DNA of 64,000 bases, taken from NCBI GenBank assembly GCA_933228675.1, contig OW121741.1:60386863-60450862 (forward strand). The letters are read 5' to 3'. This document shows positions 2,300 through 56,259 of the stretch, piece after piece. The notes under the pieces were generated by a model. That model worked only from the letters and a program-made list of their open reading frames with translations. It was not told where the DNA came from and searched no databases. This DNA is from Stomorhina lunata. Lineage: Eukaryota; Arthropoda; Insecta; Diptera; Rhiniidae. A program made the translations under genes and the position numbers. Position 1 is the first letter of the stretch. Each line of letters opens with the position of its first letter.

Positions 2300-5200
2300 T
2301 CTCAGTTTGCATTCAAAATTATACCGATCGACTCAGAATCGGGAGGAGAATCAATTAAGCGATGTCCGTCTGTCTGTCTGTCCGTCCGTTTGTCTGTCTG
2401 TTGAAATCAAGTTTCTGAAGCCCCTGGAACCTACATAAATTATATATCAGATTTTAAGAAATGAACGCTATTAAATTTCATTAAAATCGGTTTATAAACA
2501 CCGAAAATATCGAAAAAATACCAAAAATTAGACTTAAATTTTAAAATTTTTGATTGAAACACACTTTTAAATAACAAGAGAAAAAAGATACTTCTGGTAA
2601 TGGTTCCCCAAAGCACTCTGTAAAATCTTATCAAAATCGGTCCATAAACAACTGAGATATCGCCAAAACACTAAATTTAATGTAACGCCAATTGCCCAAA
2701 GTATTAGAGAATGTTTGTTGAAAAAATGAAATGCAGAAATAGGAAAAATTATAATCCTTTAGCATGGACATACATAAATTTTATATCAGATTTTAAGAAA
2801 TTTCCCCGTCAAGCACGTTATTAAATTTTATCAAAAGTGGTCCATAAACAACTGAGATATCACCAAAAACACTACTTATGCTGTACAGCAAATTGCCCAA
2901 AGTATGTCTAAGAAATTTGTTTACATTTTGTAAGTATTTTTCAGCGATATCTCGCGTGTTTATGGGCCGACAGCGTTATTTGTGGAAGGATTTCCTAAAA
3001 TCTGATATATAAACTCTACAAATCTGATCATGAATACCATTCAAATTGTACTGATCGACTCAGAATCGGCAGGAGAATCGATTTCGCTACGTCCGTCCGT
3101 CCGTCTGTCTGTCTGTCCGTCCGTCTACCTGTCTGTCCTTTTTTCTGTTGTAGTCAAGTTTTTGGAGCTCCTGCTTTGTCTCAGGTGTTTATTTTGATAA
3201 AATTTAATAGCGTTCTTCGCAGGGGATTACATACATTTTGGTATATTCGGTAATTTGTGGTAGATATAATTTAGTGTTTAAGCGATTTTTCAGGTGTTTT
3301 GACCGACAATGATGAAATTCATTGTGGGACGATAAATAAATAGTATACCATAGATTATAAATAGATATGAAAGAATCAGCTGTTCCATATGACAACTCAC
3401 TCGTGTAGGTTGTGTGTAACTGCCGCCATATTGAAGAATGAAAAATCAAAACAAATCCAAACATATTATTTACCTTTAAATTACACAAAATCAATTGCTT
3501 GAACAGCAGAAATTTTCCAAAAACAAGATTTTTATAATTTTTTTAAACATTTTGGTCATATTTTATTAACTAGAACATAATTTGTTTTCTATAAAACAAA
3601 TATTTTTTTTTCCATTTTTAACGTTTTTTTTTATTAAGAAATGAAAATAAACTTTGTTGCTTTTTTTAGTTTCAAAAATATACTACTTTTTTTAGATCTT
3701 ACAACTAAACGTACCTTGCAGCTTGGAAAGTCGAATAGTGAAGATTTTAGCATGTTAATATTAATTTTAGAAATTACAACTAATAATTTTATTACTAATT
3801 TTTAGTACATTTTGAAAAATTGCCCTATAAAAATAATCAATTTTTAAAAATTATCCCATACTTATTGTAAATTTTTGAGAAATTTCCTATTAAAATAGTA
3901 AAATTTATTTATAAAAGTAATAAATTAAAAAAAAAATGCTATAAAAATAGTAAATTTTTAGAAAAAATCCTATAAAAATAGTTAATTTTTGTAAAACTTT
4001 CTATAAAAGTACTAAATTTTTGAAAAATTTTTTATAATATACTAAATTCTTCCTATAAAAATAGTAAATTTTTTAAAAATTTCCTATAAAAATAGTAAAT
4101 TTTTTAAAAATTTCCTATAAAAATAGTAAATTTTTTAAAAATTTCCTATAAAAATAGTAAATTTTTTAAAAATTTCCTATAAAAATAGTAAATTTTTTAA
4201 AAATTTCCTATAAAAATAGTAAATTTTTTAAAAATTTCCTATAAAAATAGTAAATTTTTTAAAAATTTCCTATAAAAATAGTAAATTTTTTAAAAATTTC
4301 CTATAAAAATAGTAAATTTTTTAAAAATTTCCTATAAAAATAGTAAATTTTTTAAAAATTTCCTATAAAAATAGTAAATTTTTTAAAAATTTCCTATAAA
4401 AATAGTAAATTTTTAAAAAAATTCCTATAAAAATAGTAAATTTTTGAAAAATTTCCCATAAAAATAGTAAATTTTTAAAAAATTTCCTATAAAAATAGTA
4501 AATTTTTAAAAAATTTCCTATAAAAATAGTAAATTTTTGAAAAATGTCCTTTATAAATAGTAAATTTTAAAAGAAAAATTCTAAAGCAATAGTAATTTTT
4601 TTAAATTTCCTATAAAAGTAGTGAAAAATTTCCTATAAAAATAGTATTTTTTTTAAATTTCCTATAAAAATAGTAAACTAAAAAAAACATCCTATAAAAA
4701 CAGTAAATTTTTGGAAAATTTCCTATAAAAATAGAATTTTTTTTAATTTTTTATATAAAAAGGGAAAATTTTAAAAATCTTATTTTAGTCACTTTTTTAT
4801 AGGAAATTTTTCAAAAACTGTGGTTCCTAAGCCAGATTTTATATTTTGTTTAAAACTATTGAAACATTAATTAATCTTCAAAATTATGTACAAATATTTC
4901 ATTAAAAGTACCTACTTTTTTAAGAACATTTAAAACAACTATGTTTAAAAACCAACTGTGTGGATTTCATTTTTCACTAACACTACTAAAAAAATTTTCA
5001 AATACAATGATAGATTCAGGTTTTTTGACAGCAAATTCAGGTTTATTTGACAGGCTTTCCCTTTTATGATTTTCTATGTAGCATACCTTCCAGGAGCTCC
5101 ACAAATCTGATTTTAGAAGGCAGACAAACATTTATCTTAATTTTGTGTCTGACTTTTGAACATTATTATAATATTTGAGAATGTATTATATATCAAGTTA

Positions 5201-6922: not shown

Positions 6923-6958
6923 ATTTTTAACATATATTCACATATATGTTAAAAATCC
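6920..6958. repeat. Perfect hairpin, 18-bp arms
   Basis: AGGATTTTTAACATATAT and its exact reverse complement are separated by 3-4 bases (TCAC). The perfect match in an otherwise decayed region is unusual. Confidence 0.9.
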
Positions 6959-7048
6959 TTGGTACTTAACGATTGTTTTTTACTTACCAAAGCATCAGAT
7001 TTTGCCTGCAACACCCTCACCTCCAGTTCCTTAAGTTTGATTTCATTA

Positions 7049-7450
7049 TTAAAAATTTTCGGCATCCGTCGCTTCGACTTCTTTTAACACTTGCAATTCC
7101 TCTTCCAGACACGGATTATTTGCTTCCTTGGCTGTTTTGCCGCCACAATCAATAGTAATAGCATCAACTATTTTTGATGCCATAATTTCTGCTGTTGTGT
7201 TTGCGGACACATCAATTTCCAGGAATTCGCAAACCCGAAGCAAGGCATTTTCCCCTAATTCTTTGGAGATGCAGTTCTGGTGGTTGAGTTTTTGTTGCTC
7301 GTTTTGTTGTAAGCCTTTGAAGTTTCTAAGCTCACGATTTATGAAGTTTTCCGTAACAAATTTACGGAACACTGCAAAGTGAATATCCTTTAAGTTCTGG
7401 GATTTCCAAGAATCAATATTGTCCAGTTGTTTTTGTGTCCACTGCCACAT
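7049..7450 (-). CDS. BEL/Pao gag N-terminus (partial)
   Basis: An open frame of 134 codons starts at ATG 7450 (MWQWTQKQL), about 70 bases downstream of an LTR that matches the 3' LTR of the BEL/Pao element at 52.4 kb. The protein has a helix-rich N-terminal half and a charged C-terminal half. After the stop a shifted frame continues as a coiled coil (NEIKLKELEVRVLQAKSDAL). There is no zinc knuckle, so this can only be the start of gag. Identification rests on the LTR and leader context rather than on motifs; the protein alone I would not have named. Confidence 0.5.
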   Translation of the reverse strand: MWQWTQKQLDNIDSWKSQNLKDIHFAVFRKFVTENFINRELRNFKGLQQNEQQKLNHQNCISKELGENALLRVCEFLEIDVSANTTAEIMASKIVDAITIDCGGKTAKEANNPCLEEELQVLKEVEATDAENF

Positions 7451-7522
7451 TTTTAACAACTTTGACTTTTATTTATGGACTGTGATACAACGCGAAAAAA
7501 AATTCGCCTCTAAGGACCACTA

Positions 7523-7658
7523 TGTAAAAGAATATTTTCTGTTTTATAATAAAATATTTAAATTTTCAATTTTAGTGTCTCTTTTATTCATCGTTAATTT
7601 TATAAGTGAATTCAAAATTATACATGAGTTTTGGCGTTGCCACCATTTATCAGCGACA
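7523..7658 (-). mobile_element. BEL/Pao LTR (5' LTR orientation), 136 bp
   Basis: On the minus strand it begins TGTCGCTGATAAATGG and ends TTTTACA. It differs from the LTR at 52360-52549 by one base and by absence of a 54-bp block. The sequence after it (TGGTCCTTAGAGGCGAA) fits the leader that follows BEL/Pao 5' LTRs. The 5 bases preceding it on the minus strand are ACGAG, identical to the 5 bases after the LTR at 52.5 kb. Confidence 0.8.
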
Positions 7659-7663
7659 CTCGT

Positions 7664-26974: not shown

Positions 26975-27853
26975 ATATATATAGAGCTTATTCATGCAAA
27001 ATTTAGTGCCCATAGCTGTCATAGTTTCTAATTTAATAGCTTTTAACTTGCCTTTGCTACATTTTTTTTTTTGTTTTTTATATGAAAGCTATAGTCAAAT
27101 ATAGACCGATTCCTATAAAATTGATATACTGGCCAATAGTTGCATAAAACTTCTCTATTCTAAATTTATTACAATTGTATTCAATTTATCAGCATTAATG
27201 TGTTTCCCGGATCGGGGTTATATGGAAGCTCTAACTAAATCGCGTTTTTATCTGACGGACAGTCGGACGTAAACCCCCTTTCTTTTTGATTCTTGTGATT
27301 CCGAAAGTTTTTTATATGGGAGCTATGGTCAAATGGTGACCGATTGTGACAAAATTTTGCACACTGGTTGGTATTGACATAAGACTTCTCTGTGATAAAT
27401 TTAGTGGCCAAAGCAATTACAGTTTATCATTTATTGTCATTTAAGAGTGTTATAGGTGGAATTTAGGCTGTTTCCGTAAGTTTTTTGTGTGGGAGCTATG
27501 GTTAAATTTGAACCTATTTGGATGAAATTTTATATGCTGCCTATTACTTATGTAAAACTTCTATATACCAAATTTCATCATCATTATATTATAATTTGTC
27601 ATTTAGACGAGGTTATACGGGAGCTATGGTCAAATGTGAACCGATTTTACCCGATTTTAATAAAAAAAAAATTCCAAGAAATGCCAAATTTCAGTGACCT
27701 TTATCCTTTCGTTAAGATTTTATCGTGCCGACAACAGACAGGCGGACATCGCTCAATCGTCTTAGAATTTCATAAAAATTCAGAATATACTTCAATTTTG
27801 GTTTTTGAGCCAATATTAAGGAAATTACAAACGGAATGACAATCTCAATATAC
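26975..27853 (-). repeat. Degenerate 'GGGAGCTATGGTCAAAT' repeat block
   Basis: Five diverged units of GGGAGCTATGGTCAAAT plus GTGAACCGATTTTG occur near 27087, 27220, 27312, 27490 and 27612. The block ends with CAGACAGGCGGACATCGC and AAATTACAAACGGAATGACA, which match the 5' part of Helentron-like copies in reverse orientation. So it is probably a reverse-strand relative of that family. The Tc3-like transposon begins at its edge. Confidence 0.6.
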
Positions 27854-27855
27854 TA

Positions 27856-29478
27856 CACTGATGCATATTCCTATAAACGCATTTAATTTTTTTCTCAATT
27901 TTTGTTTTATCTTTGTTGTTCTCATTCAAAAGTAAAACTGAACTTATTAACAGAGAGGCAATTTAACGGCACTTTTTTAATGTAAACAAAATTTTTTTCT
28001 TAGTCTTGTTGTTTGCTTTATTTATGCGATCAAATGTTCTTGGTGCTATTTTAGGTGGAATATTTCTATAAACGCGGACGTAAAAATTGCTTTAAAAAAA
28101 AATACCAAAAATAAAATCTTATAGATTTTTGATTCTTTTAAATAAAGGTATGTTTTTAATGACAATATCTCAATTTTACGACAAAATTTTCTCATTTAAT
28201 TGATAAATTTAACAGTTATAAAGATGCCCAAAGGAACTTTTTTGTCCGATCAAGAAAAGATCCAAATTAAATTTTTTCATGACCAAGGATGCTCCAATAG
28301 AGAAATTGGTCGTAAAATTAAACGTTCCGAAAGTGTGGTGCGCAATTTCTTTAAGAAAGGACAGATTTATGGTGTTCGGAAGCCTACAAAGGGAAATACA
28401 AAATTAACAAAAAGACAGATTAATCTTATAAAACAAGAAGCAACCCGTAACAAATTGAATTCTACACAAATAAAGAACAAACTAAATCTTCCTGTGACTT
28501 CCAAACACGTTGCTCACATTTTACGAAAAGATGAAAACATAAAATGGAAGAAGCCCAAGTGTAAGCCAATGCTCAAAAAGCATCATAAAGAAAATCGTTT
28601 AAAATTCGCACGAAAATACATGAAATGGGCAGAGGAGTGGAAAAATGTAATTTTCTCGGACGAAAAAAAATTTAATTTAGACGGTCCTGACTCATACTCA
28701 TGTTATTGGCACGATTTGAGATCAAACGATGTGCGGTTGTCGAAACGTAATTTCGGCGGTGGCAGTGTCATGGTTTGGGCCGCATTTTCTGCAGTTGGCA
28801 AATCTAAAATTTGTTTTGTTCCAACAAAAATGAACACCACAATTTATAATGAATTGTTGGAAGATGCTCTTCTCTCTTTTATGGATGAAAAAATGGATGA
28901 AGATTGCATATTCCAGCAAGATAATGCTGCAATACACGTTTCAAAACAGTCTAGATCGTGGTTTAACGAACACAGCATACCTCTGTTGGACTGGCCGGCT
29001 TGCAGTCCGGACCTAAACCCAATGGAGAACTTGTGGGGATACATGGCCCGTAAAGTTTATTCCAATAATGCCCAAAACGAAACCATAATGACATTAACAG
29101 AACTAAAACTTAAAATAAAGCAAGCTTGGGAAGAAATTGATTCCGATCTTCTTAAAAAATTAGTGGAATCAATGCCAGACCGTATTTTTGAGGTAATCAA
29201 AAACAAAGGATCATCCACCCATTATTAATATTACTATAGAGACTGATAAATTTAATTGCGTTTATAGGAAAATACCCTTAAAAATGGCAATTTAACTCTA
29301 AAATTAAGTTAAAAAATATACAATGAAATACAAATAACGTTTTTAGTTAACAATGTTTTAAATGAAGTCTTAGTTGATTTAATAAAAATATTATTTTCCC
29401 ACTAAATATGTTCTTGTCTAATTTTTTCAAAATTTAAAAAAAAAAACTTATGTGCGTTTATAGGAATATGCATCAGTG
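27856..29478 (+). mobile_element. Structurally complete Tc3-like transposon, 1623 bp
   Basis: TA duplicates flank TIRs whose first 27 bp (CACTGATGCATATTCC, then TATAAACGCA) are identical at both ends. A related motif (ATTTCTATAAACGCGG at 28062; GCGTTTATAGGAAAAT at 29256) lies about 200 bp inside each end, as expected for a second transposase binding site. It encodes one transposase with no stop. All parts needed for an autonomous element are present. Confidence 0.95.
28224..29228 (+). CDS. Tc3-like transposase, DD34E
   Basis: Cut-and-paste transposase of the Tc1/mariner superfamily, 334 residues, the usual length. ATG 28224 is chosen because MPKGTFLSDQEK resembles the start of Tc3 transposases; an upstream in-frame extension has no ATG. 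Residues 10-55 form the first helix-turn-helix (CSNREIGRKIKRSESVVR), followed by a second HTH (TSKHVAHILRKD). The catalytic residues are D in VIFSDEKKF, D in FQQDNAAIH and E in LNPMENLWG, 34 residues after the second D. GGGSVMVWAAF and WPACSPDLNP are typical of the family. It acts in the nucleus on the 27-bp TIRs of its own element. No break is seen, so the copy may be young or under recent selection. Confidence 0.95.
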   Translation: MPKGTFLSDQEKIQIKFFHDQGCSNREIGRKIKRSESVVRNFFKKGQIYGVRKPTKGNTKLTKRQINLIKQEATRNKLNSTQIKNKLNLPVTSKHVAHILRKDENIKWKKPKCKPMLKKHHKENRLKFARKYMKWAEEWKNVIFSDEKKFNLDGPDSYSCYWHDLRSNDVRLSKRNFGGGSVMVWAAFSAVGKSKICFVPTKMNTTIYNELLEDALLSFMDEKMDEDCIFQQDNAAIHVSKQSRSWFNEHSIPLLDWPACSPDLNPMENLWGYMARKVYSNNAQNETIMTLTELKLKIKQAWEEIDSDLLKKLVESMPDRIFEVIKNKGSSTHY

Positions 29479-29479
29479 T

Positions 29480-30380
29480 ATTATTTTTAATAGTTAGTAT
29501 AAAAAACCTTAATTTATGTGACGGACGCTACACACTGTGAGCCCTTTTTTACTTGACGTTATTTATATCACTCCAATTTTTTTTGATGGGGTCTTTTACA
29601 TCTAATTGTATAAAATTAAGCAGATTTAAAGCTCCTACTGAAACTTGATACCTAAATGGATGTTTTTGCGATTTTTATGAACTTTTAAAAAACCTTTTAT
29701 TTTAAAAAAATTATAACGATTAGAAATGGGTGCAAATAAAAATCTTCCATTAACGAAGAGGGCAATCAAAAATTGTATCCATTATACATTCTAAAGGATC
29801 AATATATGGTAAAATTTTCCATAAACAAAAATACGTGATTTTGACAGTTTTAAAATTTTGTCCTTGGTTTAATGTTTTTCGCATTTGGCTTTTAACTCAA
29901 AAACAAAATTTCGAAAAATTAGCTGTTAAAGATAAACAATGCATTTCGTCAGTTTCTTAGTAGTTTTTCTTGAGCACTTTATTAAAAAATGGAGTTAAAA
30001 AAAATTAGGTTTAAGGATTTTTATTTAAATATTTGTATTTTTTTATCTATTTTTTGTGGTTTAGTATAAAAATATTACATCCGCACATTTTCCCAAGTTG
30101 GTAAAAATAATGGGGAAAAACATACTTGGGTATAATAAAGGAATAAATAAAATTAATACAAAAGATGAATGGAATGAAGCCGCACTGTCGCACAACAAGA
30201 CCGAAAGCCATGCTTTTAAACAGTTTGCTTTGACAGTTGAAGTGGCTACGGTAAGTTTATTGGTGTTACACTTTATTGTTTAGTATAAGAAACCTTTCGG
30301 CCTTAAACTTGCTCATTGCAGCTCCCCGAAGCAATATCTTGTTGTTGAATCTTGTACTCCTGCAAAAAAAATATTTCAGG
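29480..30380. other. Repeat remnants and a possible orphan exon
   Basis: GTGACGGACGCTACAC at 29518 belongs to the motif family at 16.5-17.5 kb, and 29950-30095 repeats 24470-24560. At 30109-30248 an open stretch (KTESHAFKQFALTVEVAT) ends at a consensus splice donor (ACGGTAAGTT); I do not recognise the protein. Confidence 0.35.
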
Positions 30381-33309: not shown

Positions 33310-35145
33310 ATGGATATGAGCAGAAGTACAATAAAAAGACATATTCGTAAGGAAAGGGAAAGAATATTAAAAAAATTTGAAAACAATAATCAACCAAATT
33401 TGTTGTGAGAAGTTGAAAATTTAGAACATACAATTGAGGAGACTTTACCTATTAAAACATTAAGGGAGAAATTGAGAGACTGGTACAAAGAATTTCATCC
33501 TACAATTGAATGTGTTGACCGCCTCCTGGCAATTCTTTCATCAGAAAATCTTGACGTTCCGAAAAGTTTTAAAACATTAAGAAATTCTGATAAAGAAAAC
33601 ATAATAATTAGAACTGTAAATCCGGGGTCATATTATCATTTAGGACTTGCAAAACAATTAAAAAAACTATCACAACATATAATTAAAGATGTCGAAAAAC
33701 TGTATGTGGACATTGGGGTTGATGGCCTACCACTTTTCAAAAGTTCAGCAACTTCTCTTTGGCCAATTATGGGTAAAATCGTAAATATGCCAAAAGTACA
33801 ACCTTTTTTGATTGGATCATACGTTGGTAGTAAAAAACCGGGAGATGTAGATAACTATCTTCACGATTTTATTTATGAGTTGCAATCTCTTAGTGAAAAT
33901 GGTATATGTTTGTATGGGAAATATTATAAAGTAGAAATCAGAGGATTCATTTGCGATACTCCAGCGAGATCGTTTTTGTGTAGCATAGTTGGACATACTT
34001 CATACATTGGATGTTGTAAATGCTACCAAAGAGGCAAAAAAATAAATAATGTTGTGACATACTCTTGTAAAGCATCGACTTTACGAACTGATGATGATTT
34101 TTTTAACAGAACGCATAAAGAATTTCATAATGAAACTGAAAGTGGTAGTCATAGATCCCTAGAGAAGCTGGGAATAAAAATGATATCCCAATTTCCACTT
34201 GATCCAATGCATTTGGTGGATTTGGGCGTTGCAAAAAAGATTATGATTTATTTATTAGAAAACAAAACAAAAACTGTAATGACCACGTCACAAAAAGTAA
34301 TGCTTTACAAGAAATTGCTGGAGATGGGTTCGTATATCCCAGCAGAATTTCAGCGAAAGCCACGAGGAACTGAAGAAATATGTAGATGGAAAGCTACTAA
34401 GTTCAGGCAACTTATATTATATTATGGACCAGTAGTTTTAAAGGAAATTGTAGATGATGATTTATATTATGAAATTCTTTTATTGCATGTGGCATATAGG
34501 CTATTGTCAACACCCAAGCACTTTGCTGCAAATATAAACACTGCAAATGAACTGCTTGAATTGTTTGTTGAAAACTTTTTAACCATATTTGGCGAAAGCA
34601 GCATAACATTTAATGTACATGGTCTTCTACATTTGAGCGAATGCGCAAATAAATATGGTGTAGCACCTAATTTTTCAGCCTATGCTTTTGAAAATTTTTT
34701 GCAATATATAAAAAATAGAATTCGCTGCCCCAAAAATATTTTGCAACAGCTAAAAAATATGTTTGGCGAAGCACCACTTCAAGTAAAAGAGCAACAAATT
34801 GGATTCAAAAAATCGCGTAAGAACAAAACTTTAAGTTATATTGCCGAAAATTTTATTCTCACTACTTCTTTCCCAAATAACTATTGCCTCTTGGAGCCTT
34901 TTATACCTTTAAAGATAACAGGATTCGTAGACGAAAACGGAGGTTTTGTGAAAGGAATAAAATTTAAAAATTTGAGAAACTTTTTTGAGGAGCCCGTAGC
35001 TTCATTAAGCCTTGGAATACAAATTGGCGATATTATTGACGAAGATGAAGAATTTTTTGAAATAAAAAGTATTTACTGCAAAATGGTAGCTTTTCCCATT
35101 GACTCGTCATTTGTGTTAATACCAATGCTCCATTCTTGTCAATAA
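33310..35145 (+). pseudogene. Tnp2-like (CACTA/EnSpm-type) transposase with one in-frame stop
   Basis: From ATG 33310 (MDMSRSTIKRHIRKERER) the frame is broken once by TGA at 33406 and then open for 570 codons. Residues after the stop include VDIGVDGLPLFKSS, the run LIGSYVGSKKP, IRGFICDTPARSFLC, C-x2-C zinc-like GCCKCY, and FPLDPMHLVDLGVAKK, then a long helical half with HGLLHLSECANKYG and a C-terminal beta-rich end. I associate this pattern with animal transposases related to plant Tnp2; the two aspartates in IGVDGLP and FICDTPA are candidate catalytic residues (inference). CACTA-type termini were not found. The next gene downstream encodes a DUF4806-like protein, often the partner in such elements. 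Confidence 0.65.
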
Positions 35146-43523: not shown

Positions 43524-44727
43524 TGTTGCCACCAACCAAATGTTAAATTACACATGGATCGTGACAAAATTACACATGAAATTTGGAATTACACATGATT
43601 TTTTTTTGGCAAAATACATGTTATTTTTTTGAATTTAATTATTTTTTTTTGTAAAAAATAAAAAAAATGATTTGTAGTTTTTTAAATTAATGTTCATCGT
43701 TTTTTATTTCATAACGCTTGAAAAGAAAACAATAAATGTATACTATTTCAAATCGTTACTTAGCACTTAAAAAAAACAAAAATGAAATACATAACGACTA
43801 TATTGAAAATCTTCCACCTCATGTTTAACATTTTTTGTGTAGGTTCAAAAATTGGTCCACCATTAATAAATTTTTGCAAAGTAGGAAACAATCTATCTCC
43901 AAGGAATTCTTTAAATCAAAAACTTTTATCCAGTAATCTTCTTGCTCCAAAGCCCAAAAGTTTCAAAATCGAAAAGTGCATGTCAAGAGTTTGCAAATCG
44001 ACATTGAAGAATGAAAATCTTTTTGTTAGACATATATGTCACCTTCTCCGAGAAAAGGGACCTAGTGTATGAAAATAAAGTTTTGAGAAAAACTAAAAAA
44101 ATAAAATTTTAATGTTTTTCTCATTTTTATTGATTTTCCCAAGTTCGTTTTGTACGTTTTTATGGCAAATAAATTTTTATCAGAAATCTAACTCATTTCA
44201 TCTTATTCTAAGCCCTTTTAGGTACCAGAATCCACTGCTAACTCTAAACCCGTTTTTTGACACACAAGGTTCCTTTTCTCGGAAAAGGTCACATATAATC
44301 ATTGAAGTTGAAAAGTTTGGGCAATTTTGGGGTCAACAATATCCGCAATTGAATAAATATCGTCACTTAAATTAAATATTGTTTTAATTTGACGAATATA
44401 AAATTCTCGAAAATCATGAAGTATAATTTTTTTCCCGAATTAGAGATTGTGGTCAAAGATTCATGAGCAGCAATACCAATATCACATATATATTTTAATC
44501 TGAATGGTTGATTTCCCATAAGCACTGGGATTTTAAAACATACACTCCTATGTAGTTAGAATAAAAAGTTTACATTATGGGACGCACATAAATTTAGTTT
44601 TTAAAATGCAAGTTTTGAAAACTGTTAGTACTCAAAAATGAATTACACATGCAGCGAATTACACATCGGCTACACATGAACATAAAAATTACACATGATA
44701 TGTGTAATTACACCTGAAGTGGCAACA
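43524..44727. mobile_element. 1.2-kb element with terminal TGTTGCCAC and repeated ATTACACATG
   Basis: TGTTGCCAC at the left and GTGGCAACA at the right are followed inward by clusters of AATTACACATG: 43553, 43575, 43592 on the left; 44640, 44655, 44690 and inverse copies on the right. GACC-bounded TTTTCTCGGAAAAGG-like stems at 44039-44064 and 44268-44292 form an inner inverted repeat. A 96-codon frame (43782-44072) shows no known motif. It sits immediately upstream of the BEL/Pao gag remainder. The superfamily is unknown to me. Confidence 0.6.
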
Positions 44728-44815
44728 TACAACAAAATCTGATCGAGTCTCAAGGTGGGTCAACGACCATAGTACAACGAATCAGCTAACGGAAGACCGT
44801 AGCAGACAGCAGACC

Positions 44816-45736
44816 GTGGTCAACAATAACCTTCAACATACAATAACAAATATGCTAGCAAGACAATCGCTCAACAACAAGAAACTCGAGTTCGACGGAT
44901 CATCTTCTCTGGAGTGGAGAAATTTCCTAATGCAATTCAAATCTTCCAGTAAAGAATACGGATTTTCAGCCGAAGAAGATGTACAGCGGTTAGACAAATC
45001 TCTCAAAGACAAAGCTCGTGAAAAGGTAGAAATAATTTTGATGTCAGCCAAAGAACCGTCAAGAATCCTAACAATATTAGACAACACATACGGCCGCCCA
45101 GAAAGTGTGGCAATAGAGTTAATGTCTCGAGTAAAAAATATTAAACCAATAAAGGAAATGGAAGATTTCGATGATTTTAACTGCGCCGTTCAAAATATTG
45201 CTTCTGCCCTGGAGTTTATAGAAAGCCACCTAATTGACAATCAAAAACTTCTAGCCATGGTGGTAGATAAGCTTACAGAAAGTTACCTACGTGAGTGGGG
45301 TGCATTTCTAAATGAAAAATGTATACGAGCCTCAGAATGTCAGTTCGAAGTATTTGCCGTATGGTCACAAAATTATATTTTATATTTTAAAACTTTTCGA
45401 ACCATCAATAGTCTTATTGACCCGAAGATAGATAACTCAGAATCTGACAAAAAACAAAGAGCTAAACCATCCTGTGATTTGTGTGGTGAAGAAAAGCACG
45501 GATTTGATAAGTGTAATGTATTTATCAAATCAGATATCAAAAAACGATAGGGCTTTGCAAATAAATACGAAGCGTGTTACTGCTGTCTAAAATTCCACAA
45601 GGGTCAATGCGAACATCGAGAACGCTGTACTATTGACAATTGTGAGAGATTTCATCATAATCTTTTACATAAACGTAGAGTTGAAAGCAATACCCCGGCT
45701 TTTAGTGGTTGCATCTCTGAAAGTAAGAAACATTGC
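44816..45736 (+). pseudogene. BEL/Pao gag, middle and zinc knuckles
   Basis: The frame is open upstream to the edge at about 44730, so the listed start is only the first usable codon. LEFDGSSSLEWRNFLMQF and DKAREKVEIILM are typical of the BEL/Pao gag core, which assembles the virus-like particle. CDLCGEEKHGFDKC, then CYCCLKFHKGQC and CTIDNCERFHH form the cysteine/histidine clusters. TAG at 45548 lies between the first and second knuckle. Gag and pol are in the same frame, as usual for this group. The protease expected next is mostly deleted: KKVAVKII leads directly into unrelated sequence. Confidence 0.8.
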
Positions 45737-46600
45737 TTGTTGAAAAAGGTCGCCGTTAAAATTATTCGTCCAACCGATGGGCCAGTTGAATCAAATATTA
45801 ATGCGTCAAGCTTTGTTTGCTGTCACTGCGAAAATGATGATCTACAACAAATGGTTAAGAACCAATTCAGCCTTGAAAATTTCGGCTCATGTCTCAGTAA
45901 AGTTGACAAGACCAAATCACTAGAGGATGTACTAGCGGTAGAAAAAATAAGTTCATCAATAATAAAAAATGGAAACGGGTTCCAGGTTAACTTACCTTGG
46001 AAAGAAGAAAACGTTATCCTACCACAAAGTCAACCCATGGCTAAACAACGACTTAAATGCCTTGAAAGAAAACTGATTCAAAATCCTGAAATTGGTAAAG
46101 AGTATCAAAAGGAAATTGACAAATTACTGACAAGTGGGTATGCTAGAGAGTTACCCGATAAAAACGTTCTGAAATCTCCAAAATTATGGTTTCTCCCACA
46201 CTTTGCTGTTACTAACCCCAATAAACCCTGAAAGGTTCGAGTTGTTTTTGACGCGGCGGCAGAATGTAACAACACCTCCCTAAACAAGACAAAATTCTTC
46301 ACCATTTATAGCTCAATTTGTAAAAAACCATAACGCCAAGATTTACCAGGATGAATACCCAAATGCCACCAAGTCGATTTTAGAAAACCACTACGTCGAT
46401 GACTATCTGGAATCAAAACCAACAATCGAGGAAGCCGTTACTACTATTAATACTGTCATAAAAATACACGCCCAAGCCGGCTTCGAAATTCGCAACTTTA
46501 TTTCGAATAATGAGAATATAATTAAACAGATTCCGCCACAGCTTAGGTTAAAACACAGTTCCATAGCACTAAGCAACAAACGTTTGTAAACAAAAGGTTC
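45737..46600 (+). pseudogene. BEL/Pao reverse transcriptase, internally deleted
   Basis: LWFLPHFAVTNPNKP, a TGA at 46229, then KVRVVFDAAAE mark the first RT blocks. About 70 codons (including the first catalytic aspartate block) are missing at about 46285, after which another frame has AQFVKNHNAKIYQ and HYVDDYLES with the YVDD catalytic box at 46392-46403. The polymerase would copy the element's RNA in the particle; this copy cannot. Confidence 0.85.
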
Positions 46601-46608
46601 TTGGAATA

Positions 46609-47521
46609 TTGTGGAACTCAGATAGCGATATTTTAACGTTCTCAACGCAGACGATGCATCGTATTGACACAAATATACTCAATGGAAAAGAGCTTCCTAC
46701 AAAACGTAAAGTGTTAGGAGTAGTAAACTCCGTATATGATCCACTGGGGTTGATCACACCTTTAACATTAAAGGGACGAATATTCATGCGTGATGTTTGG
46801 GATTCTGGCATCCATTGGGATGACGTTATCAAGGGTGAACTGGTAAATAAATGGCAAGACTGGTTAAAGTTTTTGAATTCTATTGAAGGTATACACATTC
46901 CACGATGTTATTCACACAACATAACAAGAGCTAAACGAATTGAACTTCACATCTTTTGCGATGCTAGCAGCAAAGCCTACTCATCAGCAGCGTATTTGCG
47001 AATCTGCTATAGCGATAACGATAAGATGAAATACGATGTATCTCTCATAGCATCAAGGGCAAGAGTATCACCCCTTAAACACATCACCATACCCAAACTG
47101 GAAACACTTGCAGCAGTTTTGGGATGTCGTTTGGCCGAAACCATACAAACGGAAATCAAAATTGAAATTCATCAACGCTTCTTTTGGACGGATTCTCAAA
47201 CAACAATATCGTGGATATAGTGATAGTCCAATGCAAACTTTTGTGGCAAATCGTATTAGTGAGATATGTGAAAAATCCAAAAGAATGGAATGGAACTGGG
47301 TGCCGACAACAGAAAATATCGCTGACATTATAACTCGCGCAAATGTTCCACAACAAAAGCTTCAAAGATGGTTCTCTGGATCCAAATTCCTCGAAGAAGA
47401 CTCCAACAATTGGCCAAAACCCAAAACGCCTGCCGTTGACACAACATGCGAGTCTGTGATGTTGGTGCAGCAAACTATCTCCTATGATGAAGAAGAAAAT
47501 CAATATTCGAGGATATGTTAA
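46609..47521 (+). pseudogene. BEL/Pao connection and RNase H domains
   Basis: VLGVVNSVYDPLGLITPLTL and WDDVIKGELVNKW lead into RNase H: LHIFCDASSKAYSSAAYL, ITIPKLETLAAVLGCRL and FFWTDSQTTISWI. A stop and a small deletion at 47218 shift the frame; NRISEICEKS... WVPTTENIADIITR continues to 47521. The D-E-D set (FCDAS, KLET, WTDSQ) is present. Confidence 0.85.
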
Positions 47522-48624
47522 AGAGAATATCTACGTACAAAAGACTTATAAGAGTGACAGCCTGGGCTAAGCGTTTTATTAGCAACTTAAAGTATAAGAA
47601 ATCTTTCATTGAACTCGGATGCCTGAGCAATGAAGAATTACATCAAGCAAATAACATCTGGTGTAAATTCGTACAACAAGAACGCTATTCAGACGACTAT
47701 CAATTTGTAAAAACTGGTAAGAGAACACCAAATTTGCGTTTAACGAAATATAGTACGTGTGTGGATGAGAATGATATCCTGAGAATTTCTGGCAGAATTG
47801 AGAGAGCTAAGGACGTGACAACAGCTAACCCGATAATCTTAGATTGAAATCATAGATTTACAACTTTGATTATAAACGAACTTCATCTTCAGGCTAATCA
47901 TACTGGCGTCCAAGTGGTTGTGCATAAATTCAAAACTTTATATTGGATGCCAAAGATGAATTTATTTATAAAAAAGGCAATCAACAGCTGCTTGTGGTGT
48001 AGACGTAGAAAGGCAATACCTATGCAACCAAAAATGGGCTTACTCTCAAAGGAACGATTCCTTACTTTTCAAAAGCCTTTTAATGCGGTGGGAATTGATT
48101 ATTTTGGCCCATTTTATACAAAGGATGGCCGTAATACTGGAGGTAGATATACAAAATGTATCAGGAAAAGGTATGGAGTGCTCTTCACTTGCCTGACAAC
48201 CAGGACCCTTCATGTCGAAATAGCCCACTCTTTAACAACAGATTCCTGCATAATGGCAATAAGAAGAATGATGGCTCGGCGTGGAGAAATACAAGTAATA
48301 TGGTCAGATAATGGTACGAACTTTCGCGGATCATCCAGGGAACTGCTGGAGGCGCTTGAGGAGTTGAATGAGCACGATATTCAATCATCCCTGGCAAATA
48401 GAGGAATTGACTGGAAATTCATACCCGCAAATGCCCCAAACTTTGGTGGCGTTTGGGTACGCTTAGTTGGTTGCTTCAAAAGAGCACTTGAATCAGTACT
48501 GTCCGTCGATAGCAACCCAACTGACGAAACTTTGAGAACAGTATTTTGTGAGGCAGAACATCTCGTAAACAGTCTATCATATTATCTAGAATCCGACAAT
48601 CCAGATGACGACTTGGCTTTATGA
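47515..48624 (+). pseudogene. BEL/Pao integrase, catalytic glutamate replaced
   Basis: One TGA at 47845 interrupts an otherwise continuous frame. The zinc domain is H-x-ANHTGV ... CLWCRRRKA. The core has D in VGIDYFGPF and D in IWSDNGTNF, but the expected glutamate in the FGGxWERL block is valine (FGGVWVRLV; codon GTA at 48457-48459), so strand transfer would be lost. The last codons (DDDLAL) break at a small deletion 30 bases before the Transib insertion. Confidence 0.85.
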
Positions 48625-48654
48625 CATTCGGACATCGGCTAATTCGTACTGACG

Positions 48655-51600
48655 CACAGTGGTTCAGAATCGTTTTTCATTGGCCAAAACTCTGTAACTT
48701 TTTAACTATTAAAGATTTTTTAGTAGTTCTTTTTTTAATCAATAGATAACACCTGTAGCATTTTCGATTGTAGGTTTTATTAAGATCGGTACAGTGGTTC
48801 TTAAGAAATTTAAGCTTGAAATTCAATTTTCGATTTTTTTCATTTTTATTTTGTTTCAAATCTGCCAACTCATTTTTGACCCACTTCCTCTTAACCGATT
48901 TGGCTCAAATTTGGGCCACAAGTCGTCCTTGGATAGCAATTTAATATTTTGTTATCCTTAGGGTGCCCCTTTTCTCGTTGAGGTATTTACAGTATTTTTA
49001 TTAGGGTGGCCTTAATTTCAATTTTTGCTTAATAATACTTACATATTACCTAGTTTTTTTTTTTAAATAAAAGAATGTAACATAATTTTTCTTTAAATAT
49101 TTATTTATTTGTAGTCATAAATAGATTGTAGATAAATAAAATAATATTTAATATTGATATTTGTATACTTTATTGCACTCAAATGTTAAATGCAAATTAT
49201 AATTATTGTTTATTTGGCTGGAATATTTCTTGTAAATATTTTATATTCTGCTCTGTATTACTGCTGTCCTGTAGCAGTGCTTTAACTTCGGCACTTAGGT
49301 CCGAAGGATTTACTTTCCATTGACTTCGAATGCTAGAGATGAATGGATCTGACGTTGCTAATAATATGTGAAATAAGTCTTCATTTGTAGAACTTCGTGA
49401 CGTTTTTCTGGTATTATGTTCTCTGTAAAATCTGTAATCCTTATTTCTTTTTACCTGGGCTTCCTCTGATAAATCTCCAATTGGTAATAAATGGTGCTTA
49501 ATGACATCTTCTCCATGATAAAGAACTTTGTGCACTGTTGCTGACATATTTCTGTAATTGTATTTGGATGTATATATAGCAACAGTTTCCTTGGCATAAT
49601 CACCAAATTTTTTAGCATTAATTTGTTCATTGGACGCAAGTACTTCAGTAATTGTTTTAAATCTTGAAATAAGATCTATATCAAGACCTGTTATATCAGA
49701 TGTAGTTTCGGGATCCAAAAAGAATCTTCTTGCGGTATTGCCGTCATTTGTATTGCCTGATCCTTGTTTTGGTTGATCTATAATTAACCCGTGTTTGAGA
49801 AATGCATCATGAACTTGTTTCTTTTTTTAATTTTCTTTTCTCTTTGTTGGTGTCATTATTTCTTACTGATCCTGAAGATCCGAAGTCCAAATCATAGCTA
49901 ATTTTCAGTATATGTTCCATAAATCTTATTCTCGTATGTAGCGGTGATAATCCAAATTCAAATGCATCAATACTATCTAGTGACTTTGTAGGTTCTTGGT
50001 TTAACTGACTTGATGTTGCTTTACATATAATACAGCTGGATGAAGCTTTTGTATCAGTCAAAGCCTGGGCAGCTTTTCCGTCTATCATTGAAAGTATTAA
50101 TTGATAATTCAATTTAATAGTATGTTCATCTATCTCTAACTCTAATAGCTTTAGTGTTGAAATTTGAGCTCTGATGTCACTTATTTCATTCTTAATGGTA
50201 TCATGAGTTTCCTTTTTAAATTCAAATTTTATTGGTCTGCAGTACTTTGTGGACGATGGAGTATGATTTTTCCAAATAAAATTTGTTTGCATTGTGCTGG
50301 ACGAAGGTTCCGAGTCTTCTAAGTTTTTTATTAATCGCAATGGCACAAATGACACCATGAACATATCTGTGTCAGAAATATCTTCACATAAAAATTGTTT
50401 ATATTGTTTTTGTCCTGAAGATCCATCGCATCCCCATTTACAAAAGAGAGTTAAATTGCAGTTTCCATGTTTTTTTAAATCACTTCCTTTAAGTGATTGC
50501 AGCAACGTTTCAGCTGTATGATCAAGTAGAGCTTACAGTTGTACCCGTGCAGGAATTGGTGTGATTTTCATAGATTCCTTTGGAGGATAGCACTCCTTTT
50601 TAGCTGCAAATATGTGATGATATGACGGGTATAAATTTAAGCCTTTTTCGATCGCACGCAATCTGAGTTGAGTATACTGGTGTTTTGTTAGCTTTAAATC
50701 CAGAAATAATGCAAGTGCTTCCTCGTTTGTAAACTGTTTTTCCTCGTTTGGTGTTGGAATGCTTTTAAGAACCCGTTTTGTTCTCACCGGACTAGCAGAA
50801 AGGACTTTCTGAATGATATCCACTTTCGCTAATTGTTTTTCAGATCGAAGTTTATGCAGAAAACTATCTTTAATGTTTTCACACCCGATTTCTTCATTAA
50901 AATACTTCAGTTTTCGTCTCTTAGATCTATCGCTACAGTTATCTAACGGTTTTTGTGGTCTTCCACAACTCCCATCATTTGTTGTGTTTCAATGTAGAGA
51001 CTATTTATATTCAGTTTTGTTTGAATATGGCTTAGAACACCATCTTTATTTTTAAAATATTCTTCGGCCAATTCTTTATAGCTGAAAGTCTCCATATTTT
51101 AATTTAGCCGAAAATAATGTACTTTTAAAGGGCTTTGAAATAAAACTTCCAAATATTTATCAACCTTTTTAAATCGAATACTTGTTCGAAACTAACATTT
51201 ATTTCCAAATTATTGTCCTTATATCATGCTATGATATTATTATACTCTACCTAGGTAGCTGTCCATAAAATCAAATGGAAAATTGTACCTGTTCAAATTC
51301 ATCCTGTATTTCACTGAAAGATATTTTAAAAATTTTTTCATGGAATTTTTAAAATGCAGTGAATAAATTTAGGAAGTTTTATTTAATGTCATAAAAGACC
51401 AATTATAATAATTTTTAAGTATAATAAAACCCTTTAACGCTGATGAGTAACAGGCTAGGTAACATTCCTTAAAAAATGGAAAATTTTAACTGTTAAAATT
51501 CATTCTGTACTTTACTGAAATACATTACAGGTTTTTTCCCTATAATTTTTTAGCAGGTAATTAAAATATCTGTGCAAAATGAAATATTTTCAAAATTCTT

Positions 51601-52263
51601 TGAAAAATTCCCTAAAAAATTCAGGGAAGTTTTTTTTGAATAAAAATTTAAACCACTAATAACTTTCCTCTTATTAAAATAACTATCTGCAATTTGTATT
51701 TATGACAGTGAATGATTTCTAAAGTAAATTTACTAGTAATTTTGCTTGTAAAAATGTTGCGTATTTTCCGGGCGGGTACAAAAGTATATATAGGCTTAAA
51801 AGGAACACTCTTGGCTTTCTTTGGGTGGTTTCGATTTTTGTTTCCATTTGTTTCTACAAAAGTTATACACTACTAAACTTGAAATTTTATGAGTATATGG
51901 TGATTTTAAATTTTTTACATAACACCTTAACTACAAATTATACAGGGTGCGCAAATACCATTTGTTAAAACCAACAGTCCACCCAACATAACAAAAAAAA
52001 CTGCAGCCCATTAGCATTAATAGTTTTCAAGAAATCGTAATTAATATGAGATCAAAAATTACAATTTTTCTTTCATTTCTAAATTAACCAAAATTCCTTG
52101 TCTTTAGCAGCATGCCACGCCCACTACAGCGGGTATTTTGACCAAATTTTTTGGCCACCTTAGTTTTGATATGTTTTCTTTCTGATGGTATAAAAATTTT
52201 AAAAATCTATGTCAACAAAAAATATAGGTTTTGGCCAATGAAATTTGATTCTGAACCACCGTG
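48655..52263 (-). mobile_element. Transib transposon, 3609 bp, RSS-like heptamer ends
   Basis: The left end reads CACAGTGGTTCAGAATC and the right end, inverted, CACGGTGGTTCAGAATC; both continue to CATTGGCCAAAAC. CCAAAAC starts exactly 22 bases after the heptamer at both ends, roughly where the nonamer of a 23-type recombination signal would lie. Flanking 5-mers are TGACG (48650-48654) and CGACG (52264-52268), close to the CGWCG target preference reported for Transib. It encodes the RAG1-like transposase below and sits inside the BEL/Pao pol. 51096-52260 and 48700-49200 hold no gene. Confidence 0.85.
49203..51095 (-). pseudogene. Transib transposase (RAG1-core-like)
   Basis: Start ATG at 51095 (METFSYKELAEEYF). 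Order along the protein: a basic N-terminal region; LRLRAIEKGLNLYPSYHHI ... AKKECYP; WGCDGSSGQKQYKQ with the first candidate D; STKYCRPIKFEFKKET; ILSMIDGKAAQALTD with the second D; a C-x2-C pair (SCIICKATSSQLN) like the zinc ligands of the RAG1 core; GLSPLHTRIRFMEHIL; and LLPIGDLSEEAQVKRNKD with the candidate E, then RKTSRSSTNEDLF. RAG1 D600, D708 and E962 are the counterparts (family knowledge). Breaks: a frameshift near 50990, TAA at 50533-50535, and a frameshift in an A-run near 49780. All three candidate catalytic residues remain. Confidence 0.85.
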
Positions 52264-52359
52264 CGACGACACGTGAACCAACTCTGTAGACTTGGCATAA
52301 ATCATAGCGACATCGATCATCGTGTAGGCGAGTAGGAGCCAACACTAGGGGGTGGAATA

Positions 52360-52549
52360 TGTCGCTGATAAATGGTGGCAACGCCAAATACCTCAAAGTA
52401 ATACCTTAAAATTGCAACTATGTTTTTGTATACAATTTTTACACTCATGTATAATTTTGAATTCACTTATAAAATTAACGATGAATAAAAGAGACACTAA
52501 AATTGAAAATTTAAGTATTTTATTATAAAACAGAAAATATTCTTTTACA
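52360..52549 (+). mobile_element. BEL/Pao 3' LTR, 190 bp
   Basis: It begins TGTCGCTGATAAATGG directly after a polypurine tract and ends TTTTACA, both ends defined by comparison with the LTR at 7523-7658. AATAAA at 52486 may be the polyadenylation signal. ACGAG follows at 52550-52554. Confidence 0.85.
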
Positions 52550-52781
52550 ACGAGTAAAACAAAACGCGTACAGACGGGACAGACGTCAGAACACTACTTT
52601 GGAAATTAAACAAAAAAAAAAAAACATATTTTTTCAAAAGGCACATCAAATACGCTCTAATTTACAATTTAATTTATTAATTTATCGTTTTTAATTCCAA
52701 AGTTACAGCAAAAATAGTCAAATAAGACCATTTTATCCAAAATAGAAAAGAGCCCATAAAAGGTTAACAATTTATATTTTT
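52550..52781. other. Flank between LTR and Helentron-like copy B
   Basis: AT-rich with an A13 run near 52611; nothing else recognised. Confidence 0.5.
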
Positions 52782-55015: not shown

Positions 55016-56259
55016 CACTGCATAAATAACCTTCCGATGTTTTTGGCTAAAAAAAATGAAAGACTTTGATTCTTCTTGTGGATTATTTTTATTTGGTCTT
55101 TTATTTTTTTTACATCAAGTCGAGAATATGATGTCATGCAAATGACCGCCGTCACAGTTGATTGTCATTTGAGCCCTTTTTATGGCATTTTCCATCATTT
55201 TCCGGCGATAGGTCCTCACACTCTTGACGGATATTGTCTTTAAGAGCTGCAAGAGTCTGAGGCTTGTTGACATAAACCCGCGACTTCAAAAAGCCCCACA
55301 AAAAGAAGTCTGCAGCGGTCAAATCAGGCGATCTTGCTGGCCAGTGCAAATCGCCAAAACGGAAGATTAGGCGCCCGGGAAATGCATCTTTCAGCATATC
55401 GGTTGTGGCACGTGCAGTGTGTGCCGTTGCACCGTCCTGTTGGAACCACATGTTTTCCAATCCCAATTCATCAAGTTGCGGCAAACGGAACTCGTTAATC
55501 ATTGCTCTGTAGCGCTCACCATTCACAGTAACCGTTTGGCCCGCTACGTCTTCGAAGGAAATAGGTCCGATGACTCCTCCAGCGAAAACAGCACACCATA
55601 CAGTGACTTTGAGCGGGTGTAGTGGCTCCTCTTTACGTACCCGCTAAGATGGAAATGGGCCTCATCACTCATCATTATTTTTGATGAAAAATCATCTTCC
55701 TCTTGGTGGTGATTAAGGATGGCTTGAGCGTATGTTAGACGCGATCGGCGGTCAGCAGCTAACAGGTGATGCACCGTCTGGACTTTGTACGGATACATCT
55801 TCAAATCTTTTACCAAAATTCGCTGCAAAGACCGTCGACTGATACCCATTTGCGTGGCACGTCGTCTGGTCGATGTCGACGGCGCTTCCATGACATCCTC
55901 GGCTACAGCAGCAATATTCTCTACAGAGGGACTCCGGGGTCTGCCACGCCTGGCAGCATCTCGTGTTGTGCCAGTCTCTTCGAGGCGAGCGGCTAAACGT
56001 CGCAGTATTTCACCAGTAGGCGTTGGACGGCCAGGAAATCTGAGACGAAATTCACGTTGTGCCAAAGTCACCGACCGATTATTGTTCAAATAAATAGTCA
56101 CCAATATTCCGCGTTCTGGAGCAGTGTAGAGTAACATTGTTTATTAACGTGTATTTTGCAAGTGTTTACTACACAAATGTCAAAACAGAATTGACATTAG
56201 GGGCCAATCGCAAAATTTAGAGCATTTTCTGATAGGAGGATTACTTTTGCGCCACCTTT
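55016..56259 (-). mobile_element. rosa-type (DD41D) mariner, 1244 bp
   Basis: TA duplicates at 55014-55015 and 56260-56261 bound it; the uninterrupted site (ATATAATACTAG) is present at 32046-32060 (reverse) and 62122-62133. Terminal repeats are diverged: GCATAAATAACCTTCC on the left against GCAAAAGTAATCCTCC read inward from the right. The transposase occupies most of it. Confidence 0.85.
55115..56137 (-). pseudogene. Transposase of the rosa-type mariner, two frameshifts
   Basis: N-terminal HTH region starts at 56137 (MLLYTAPERGILVTIYL), with a GRPR-like basic hinge (RRGRPRSPS) and a second HTH (TQMGISRRSLQRIL). First catalytic D in IMMSDEAHFHLS. Near 55642 a small deletion removes about a dozen codons and shifts the frame; it resumes as VTVWCAVFAGG with QQDGATAHT (second D) and WPARSPDLTAADFFLWG. 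Counting to the D of TAAD gives 41 residues, so DD41D, as in the rosa group of Ceratitis and mosquitoes. A second shift near 55200 precedes the C-terminus ending in a TGA at 55115. Confidence 0.85.

Follow-up and report, generated by a model that had tools for sequence, protein, structure and literature searches.

Transib transposases are related to the enzyme that rearranges antibody genes. Transib and RAG1 transposases nick DNA at the border of a heptamer, make a hairpin on the flank and insert the ends with a 5-bp stagger, and the precursor of the V(D)J signal is presumed to have been read as a symmetric bipartite heptamer-spacer-nonamer. HzTransib of Helicoverpa zea (PDB 6pqn and others) is reported to leave hairpinned flanks and blunt signal ends (PMC6941560) and to duplicate GCTCG at its target (PMC1852546); the target of Drosophila melanogaster hopper/transib2 is listed as CCANTGG (PMC3276498). 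Transib ends with symmetric 20–22 bp spacers have already been described (PMC8355894, Fig. 2B legend); both symmetric and asymmetric ends are reported for Subgroup II Transibs (PMC9435367). Here, we describe a Transib copy in a 64-kb stretch of the genome of the fly Stomorhina lunata (C2:60386863–60450862, hereafter the window), for which 728 Mb of genome in 104 contigs were searched. The copy is almost certainly a cut-and-paste transposon of the Transib superfamily that inserted at CGACG in a BEL/Pao retrotransposon, duplicated 5 bp of its target and then decayed. A RAG1-related transposon with both ends, a target duplication and an unoccupied site can be checked here within one genome.

Both ends of the element are seen directly (Table 1). 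CACAGTGGTTCAGAATCGTTTTTCATTGGCCAAAAC, read from 48655 (+), and CACGGTGGTTCAGAATCAAATTTCATTGGCCAAAAC, read from 52263 (−), are identical at 32 of 36 bases in a self-comparison of the window, in which the next best place reaches 22/36. When a 17-base end was sought with its fourth base open and up to three mismatches allowed, the window gave two matches against a shuffle mean of 0.20, and none of 100 shuffles gave two. The shared CACRGTG ends that a first-pass annotation of this sequence had recognized are real, and the boundaries it had placed at 48655 and 52263 are exact; similarity to the window ends 2 bp (four copies), 4, 8 or 15 bp beyond the left end in all seven copies first compared. The heptamers have the CAC..GTG form of Transib terminal inverted repeats. 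CACAGTG occurs at the left end of all 39 copies fetched from elsewhere in the genome, though all were retrieved via that end, and the right heptamers of the other copies with a right end are CACGGTG (17/21), AACGGTG (three related copies) and CATGGTG (one). No Rfam family matched within the window at gathering scores.

The insertion site is preserved in unoccupied form in relatives of the host. Sequence flanking the transposon encodes Peptidase_A17 (E 2.8e-52), DUF1759 (E 6.7e-08) and Integrase_H2C2 (E 3.3e-10) domains, with an rve match under the cut-off (E 0.0002); the combination of Pao peptidase and integrase identifies the host as BEL/Pao. Two BEL/Pao relatives, L071 (C2:65890500–65891420) and L078 (C1:83.06 Mb), have no Transib at this position: in each, the final 32 bp of the left flank run directly into the start of the right flank, with a single CGACG as the overlap. 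These two sites therefore demonstrate both the 5-bp duplication and the nesting in BEL/Pao, which had been suggested from the window alone together with a search for just such an empty site. Three other loci match the 200-bp left flank of the element, over bases 1–169, 1–169 and 1–146; the last 31 flank bases are detached from these matches because the window BEL/Pao copy lacks ~300 bp that are present in L071. A 5-bp target site duplication is characteristic of Transib, and perfect duplications flank 17 of the 21 other both-ended copies (11/13 when counted by flank cluster). It is highly improbable that the Transib was instead carried in by a duplicated or misassembled segment. Other family copies do sit in duplicated segments (e.g., four copies ~8.85 kb apart) and the BEL host is apparently rearranged, but the left flank of the window copy forms a separate cluster and the two empty sites are those of an insertion here.

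Insertion by transposition would have required transposase, supplied by an active relative or by the window copy while still intact, to cut beside both heptamer ends. Nick-hairpin cutting is assumed by analogy with HzTransib, and only its products (ends, duplication and empty site) are seen here. Insertion at CGACG in the 3′ internal part of the BEL/Pao retrotransposon would then have produced the 5-bp duplication. Decay presumably came later, through change of one flank base, loss of ~145 bp, a stop, a frame change and replacement of the catalytic Glu by Val. The window copy is now unable to supply transposase, and its apparently intact ends could in principle be mobilized in trans by the enzyme of other copies.

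Table 1. Coordinates of the Transib copy, its transposase gene and its BEL/Pao host in the 64-kb window
Feature	Position	Strand	Details
Whole Transib copy	48655..52263	− (transposase gene)	3609 bp; based on matching ends, similarity limits and empty sites
Left terminal inverted repeat	48655..48690	+	Heptamer CACAGTG; 3′ side of gene
Right terminal inverted repeat	52228..52263	−	Heptamer CACGGTG; 5′ side of gene
Left target duplication	48650..48654		TGACG; CGACG in empty sites
Right target duplication	52264..52268		CGACG; identical in empty sites L071 557–561 and L078 1938–1942
Transposase frame start	50989..51095	−	METFSYKELAEEYFKN...; ATG 51093–51095, then frame change at ~145-bp gap
Transposase piece N	50533..50988	−	GRP motif and core start; in-frame stop 50533–50535; HzTransib E 3.2e-10
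Transposase piece M	49807..50532	−	First Asp WGCDG, second MIDGK, CIIC zinc pair; frame end; HzTransib E 2.6e-32
Transposase piece C	49203..49826	−	Other frame; zinc His pair HKVLYH, LSEEAQ, C-terminus; HzTransib E 4.2e-48
Catalytic Glu codon (HzTransib E436)	49452..49454	−	GTA = Val
BEL/Pao internal region, left of insertion	44708..48654	+	Gag-like DUF1759, Peptidase_A17, integrase
BEL/Pao internal region, right of insertion	52269..52359	+	To polypurine run; within 98% identical stretch of L071
BEL/Pao 3′ long terminal repeat (LTR)	52360..52549	+	Seven genome places, two inside window (eight matches)

The transposase gene supports the assignment to the Transib superfamily that the first-pass annotation had proposed. 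HzTransib (PDB 6pqn) is the best solved relative of each of the three larger pieces, with E values from 3.2e-10 for piece N to 4.2e-48 for piece C. The catalytic aspartates align with HzTransib D126 and D225 and the third catalytic position with E436 (published positions from PMC6941560; residue numbering was set by an offset of 17, which is consistent with both aspartates). In the homologue alignment, the first Asp is kept in 26 of 27 rows with a residue there and the second in 18 of 20 (window included), and the third column holds 59 Glu, one Gln and one Tyr among 61 homologues with a residue (66 aligned; five gapped rows excluded). The Glu codon is covered by 37 of the 39 fetched copies (all except L031 and L039) and is GAA or GAG in every one. 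The family thus has the DDE triad and zinc ligands expected of a Transib. Two observations depart from this pattern: the triad of the window copy reads D, D, V, and in the tandem array described below the Glu stretch is absent from all six units that were fetched.

Core transposase homology, both Asp positions and a 5-bp duplication are common to HzTransib and the element. Alignment with the solved HzTransib chain does not start until residue 84 of piece N, which leaves the GRP stretch upstream unmatched; the two also differ in the duplicated sequence (GCTCG versus CGNCG in the window's family) and in the catalytic Glu, which the window copy lacks. With RAG1 and RAGL transposons, the element has in common the core fold, catalytic layout and heptamer, in line with the relationship to RAG1 that had been noted at first. 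It differs from them in having neither a RAG2-like gene nor 12/23 asymmetry, and the RAG1 Pfam match of piece C falls under the cut-off (E 0.0065). We give almost no credence to the possibility that this is a RAGL transposon, or a RAG1 relative that otherwise stands nearer to RAG1 than to Transib, given that HzTransib is by far the stronger match by sequence and, in a predicted structure, appears somewhat stronger than RAG1. No RAG2-type partner was found among the element's open reading frames (ORFs) of ≥150 aa, which are the three transposase pieces.

The window copy is judged from its sequence to be dead, with a stop, a frame change, loss of ~145 bp and Val in place of the catalytic Glu. 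About 145 bp of coding sequence are missing from the window copy; of 21 copies measurable at this site, 17 are longer by exactly 145 bp and the others by 142, 146, 149 and 149 bp. Loss of the Glu by substitution is seen in the window copy only. WGCDG, MIDGK, CIIC and LSEEAQ blocks are all present, as first described, but to say that the protein keeps LSEEAQ is misleading, because that block ends one residue before the catalytic position and the adjoining Glu is replaced by Val. A motif block spotted by eye may persist after a neighboring catalytic residue is lost.

Several observations weigh against a simple transposition and decay history. The flanking pentamers TGACG and CGACG, which are as previously described, are one base apart (4/5 identical), and four of the 21 both-ended copies (three related copies and one other) lack a perfect duplication. 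The third BEL relative (C11:71377151) is deleted across the site and is uninformative. The right end was not found within reach in 18 of the 39 fetched copies; these 39 loci and the window are the 40 top-ranking candidates of 777 in a selection made on the left end. Insertion of a Transib into BEL/Pao, followed by decay, nevertheless remains our preferred explanation.

The same ends recur widely in the genome, so the search for further copies suggested at the outset was productive; all match counts given here are lower bounds. For the left end, 40 scored of 777 candidates, window included, match at 99–100% over 101 bases. At the right end, with 40 scored of 592 candidates, 40 matches including the window are 100% identical, and there is one additional short match. 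A protein search with piece M gave at least 155 matches including the window (1317 candidates, 150 scored). The locus had been presented as a rare chance to see a RAG1 relative with its termini and insertion site, a view that these numbers do not bear out: with so many copies in the genome, the element counts as an unexceptional representative of a known group, and this type of element is well known. The 39 fetched copies fall into 28 flank clusters, none of which joins that of the window, and some copies therefore belong to duplicated segments. The right end lies within reach in 21/39. The closest fetched copy, L042, is 98.4% identical over the first 2331 bases. A wholly undamaged gene was seen in none of the 39, though some have long open frames. 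In L029, both ends and a perfect duplication accompany a 647-aa frame that contains D, D and E but has an altered C-terminus; L023 keeps all three blocks within an open frame of 708 aa, in which the start region is lost and the first Met is at frame position 254.

A family with many copies allows its target preference to be read directly. At the left pentamer of the 39 copies, C occurs in 37, G in 37, any base at the center, C in 37 and G in 35, i.e., CGNCG, which fits 22 of 28 flank clusters by hand count and occurs 51 times in the 64-kb window. The CGWCG preference cited in the first-pass annotation stands for this family in the wider form CGNCG and fails as a general statement; neither form is a rule for every Transib because hopper/transib2 is listed with CCANTGG. 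Compared by description only, hopper/transib2 has a 5-bp duplication and a palindromic target in common with the window's family and differs in target sequence (CCANTGG versus CGNCG). In literature searches on Transib, "CGWCG" did not appear among the top five of 298 matching papers, nor "CGNCG" among 20 listed of 82.

The ends also raise the question of whether a heptamer-spacer-nonamer signal is present. CCAAAAC starts 22 bases after the heptamer at both ends, as originally observed. A nonamer-like box scored against ACAAAAACC at spacers of 10–30 peaks at spacer 21 (6 and 7 of 9 at the two ends), with 6 and 6 at spacer 22 and 4 and 3 at spacer 23; 12-type spacers (11–13) give at most 1 and 2 of 9. 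The proposal that the ends act as a 23-type signal pair is thus not upheld, and a 23/23 pair would in any case differ from the V(D)J arrangement of one 12-bp and one 23-bp spacer, which is absent here, with 21–22 the best spacing at both ends. Random window segments at spacers 20–23 reach 7 of 9 in 1.4% of cases and 6 of 9 in 7.6%, and the ends do not count as two independent tests, which makes the box no more than suggestive; its conservation across copies may merely reflect that the copies were retrieved via those ends. Compared by description only, the symmetric-spacer Transibs of the Fig. 2B legend in PMC8355894 likewise have a heptamer and nonamer-like box with equal spacing at both ends.

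It is unlikely, if arguable, that the ends form a V(D)J-type bipartite signal pair in which the transposase recognizes the heptamer and uses its N-terminal GRP motif to read the nonamer. The equal placement of the box at both ends would agree with this, as would the GRP motif: GRPQKP occurs in piece N and in a number of copies, GRP is also present in some relatives, and an equivalent of the nonamer-binding domain (NBD, a nonamer-binding-like domain) with GRP has been reported for Transibs (PMC9435367). The symmetric 21–22 spacing, rather than 12/23, and the chance rates in an AT-rich window argue the other way, and protostome RAGL proteins have been proposed to recognize only ~15 bp of the end (PMC7204232). 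The predicted structure P0001 used in the search for a nonamer-binding domain has a mean predicted local distance difference test (pLDDT) score of 74.2 and a predicted template-modeling (pTM) score of 0.48. Foldseek aligned 300–333 columns to many RAG1 chains (root-mean-square deviation ~18–23) versus 204–211 to HzTransib, and the rows of the VIA-align alignment cover mainly residues 4–64 and 167–375, so that the GRP-bearing residues 65–166 of the model are barely probed. A broader proposition is that this large, fairly young Transib family, with two unlike heptamers, an equally spaced nonamer-like box and an N-terminal GRP, still reads a symmetric bipartite heptamer-spacer-nonamer signal; we regard it as distinctly doubtful.

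Other Transib copies have unusual arrangements. Within C2:52.91–53.03 Mb (L060–L065 and L074), 22 transposase matches are listed, mostly ~5 kb apart, which suggests that a unit carrying a Transib is repeated in tandem. L060–L065 lack the Glu stretch and each retains a 494–523-aa open frame; the array could be plain amplification or, more boldly, a source of repressor. L044–L047 (four copies) are spaced at ~8.85 kb and L020–L022 (three copies) at ~8.35 kb; flanks are common within each set, and together with the regular spacing this suggests that the transposon was duplicated in tandem along with its surroundings. L037 (C1:75821348–75825848) has an 893-aa open frame that fuses a Rep/helicase sequence, which we take to be Helitron-like, in frame to the C-terminal part of the Transib transposase. 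In viral contigs, the end pattern matched twice (L001 and L002), but tblastn found no transposase there; only L002 gave tblastn matches, at chance level (best E 2.6), both pattern matches are attributed to chance, and a protein scan of the viral contigs found no relative of the transposase.

The BEL/Pao host has its 3′ LTR in place, and a 5′ LTR, together with the opening internal part, lies inverted at 6957–7658 (−). The related copy L069 matches window positions 7629–6957 (−) and resumes at 44726 (+), with ~47 bp of L069 unmatched between, and ACGAG occurs at both outer ends (7659–7663 (−) and 52550–52554). It seems from these matches that one BEL/Pao element (6957–7658 (−) and 44726–52549 (+)) was split by a ~38-kb inversion, though the apparent inversion may be an assembly error.

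The window contains further repeats. In a Tc1-like element at 27847–29487, 47-bp inverted repeats that are 89% complementary enclose an open transposase frame of 342 aa (DDE_3, E 7.5e-19). Transposase remains at 55152–56140 (−), presumably Mariner-like, occupy two overlapping frames, one with a DUF4817 match (E 3.3e-08). A 578-aa open frame at 33409–35145 has a tnp2 transposase match (Transposase_21, E 4.1e-06) under the curated cut-off, and a minisatellite-like tandem repeat at 3803–4778 gives many offset self-matches, several in ~31-bp steps.
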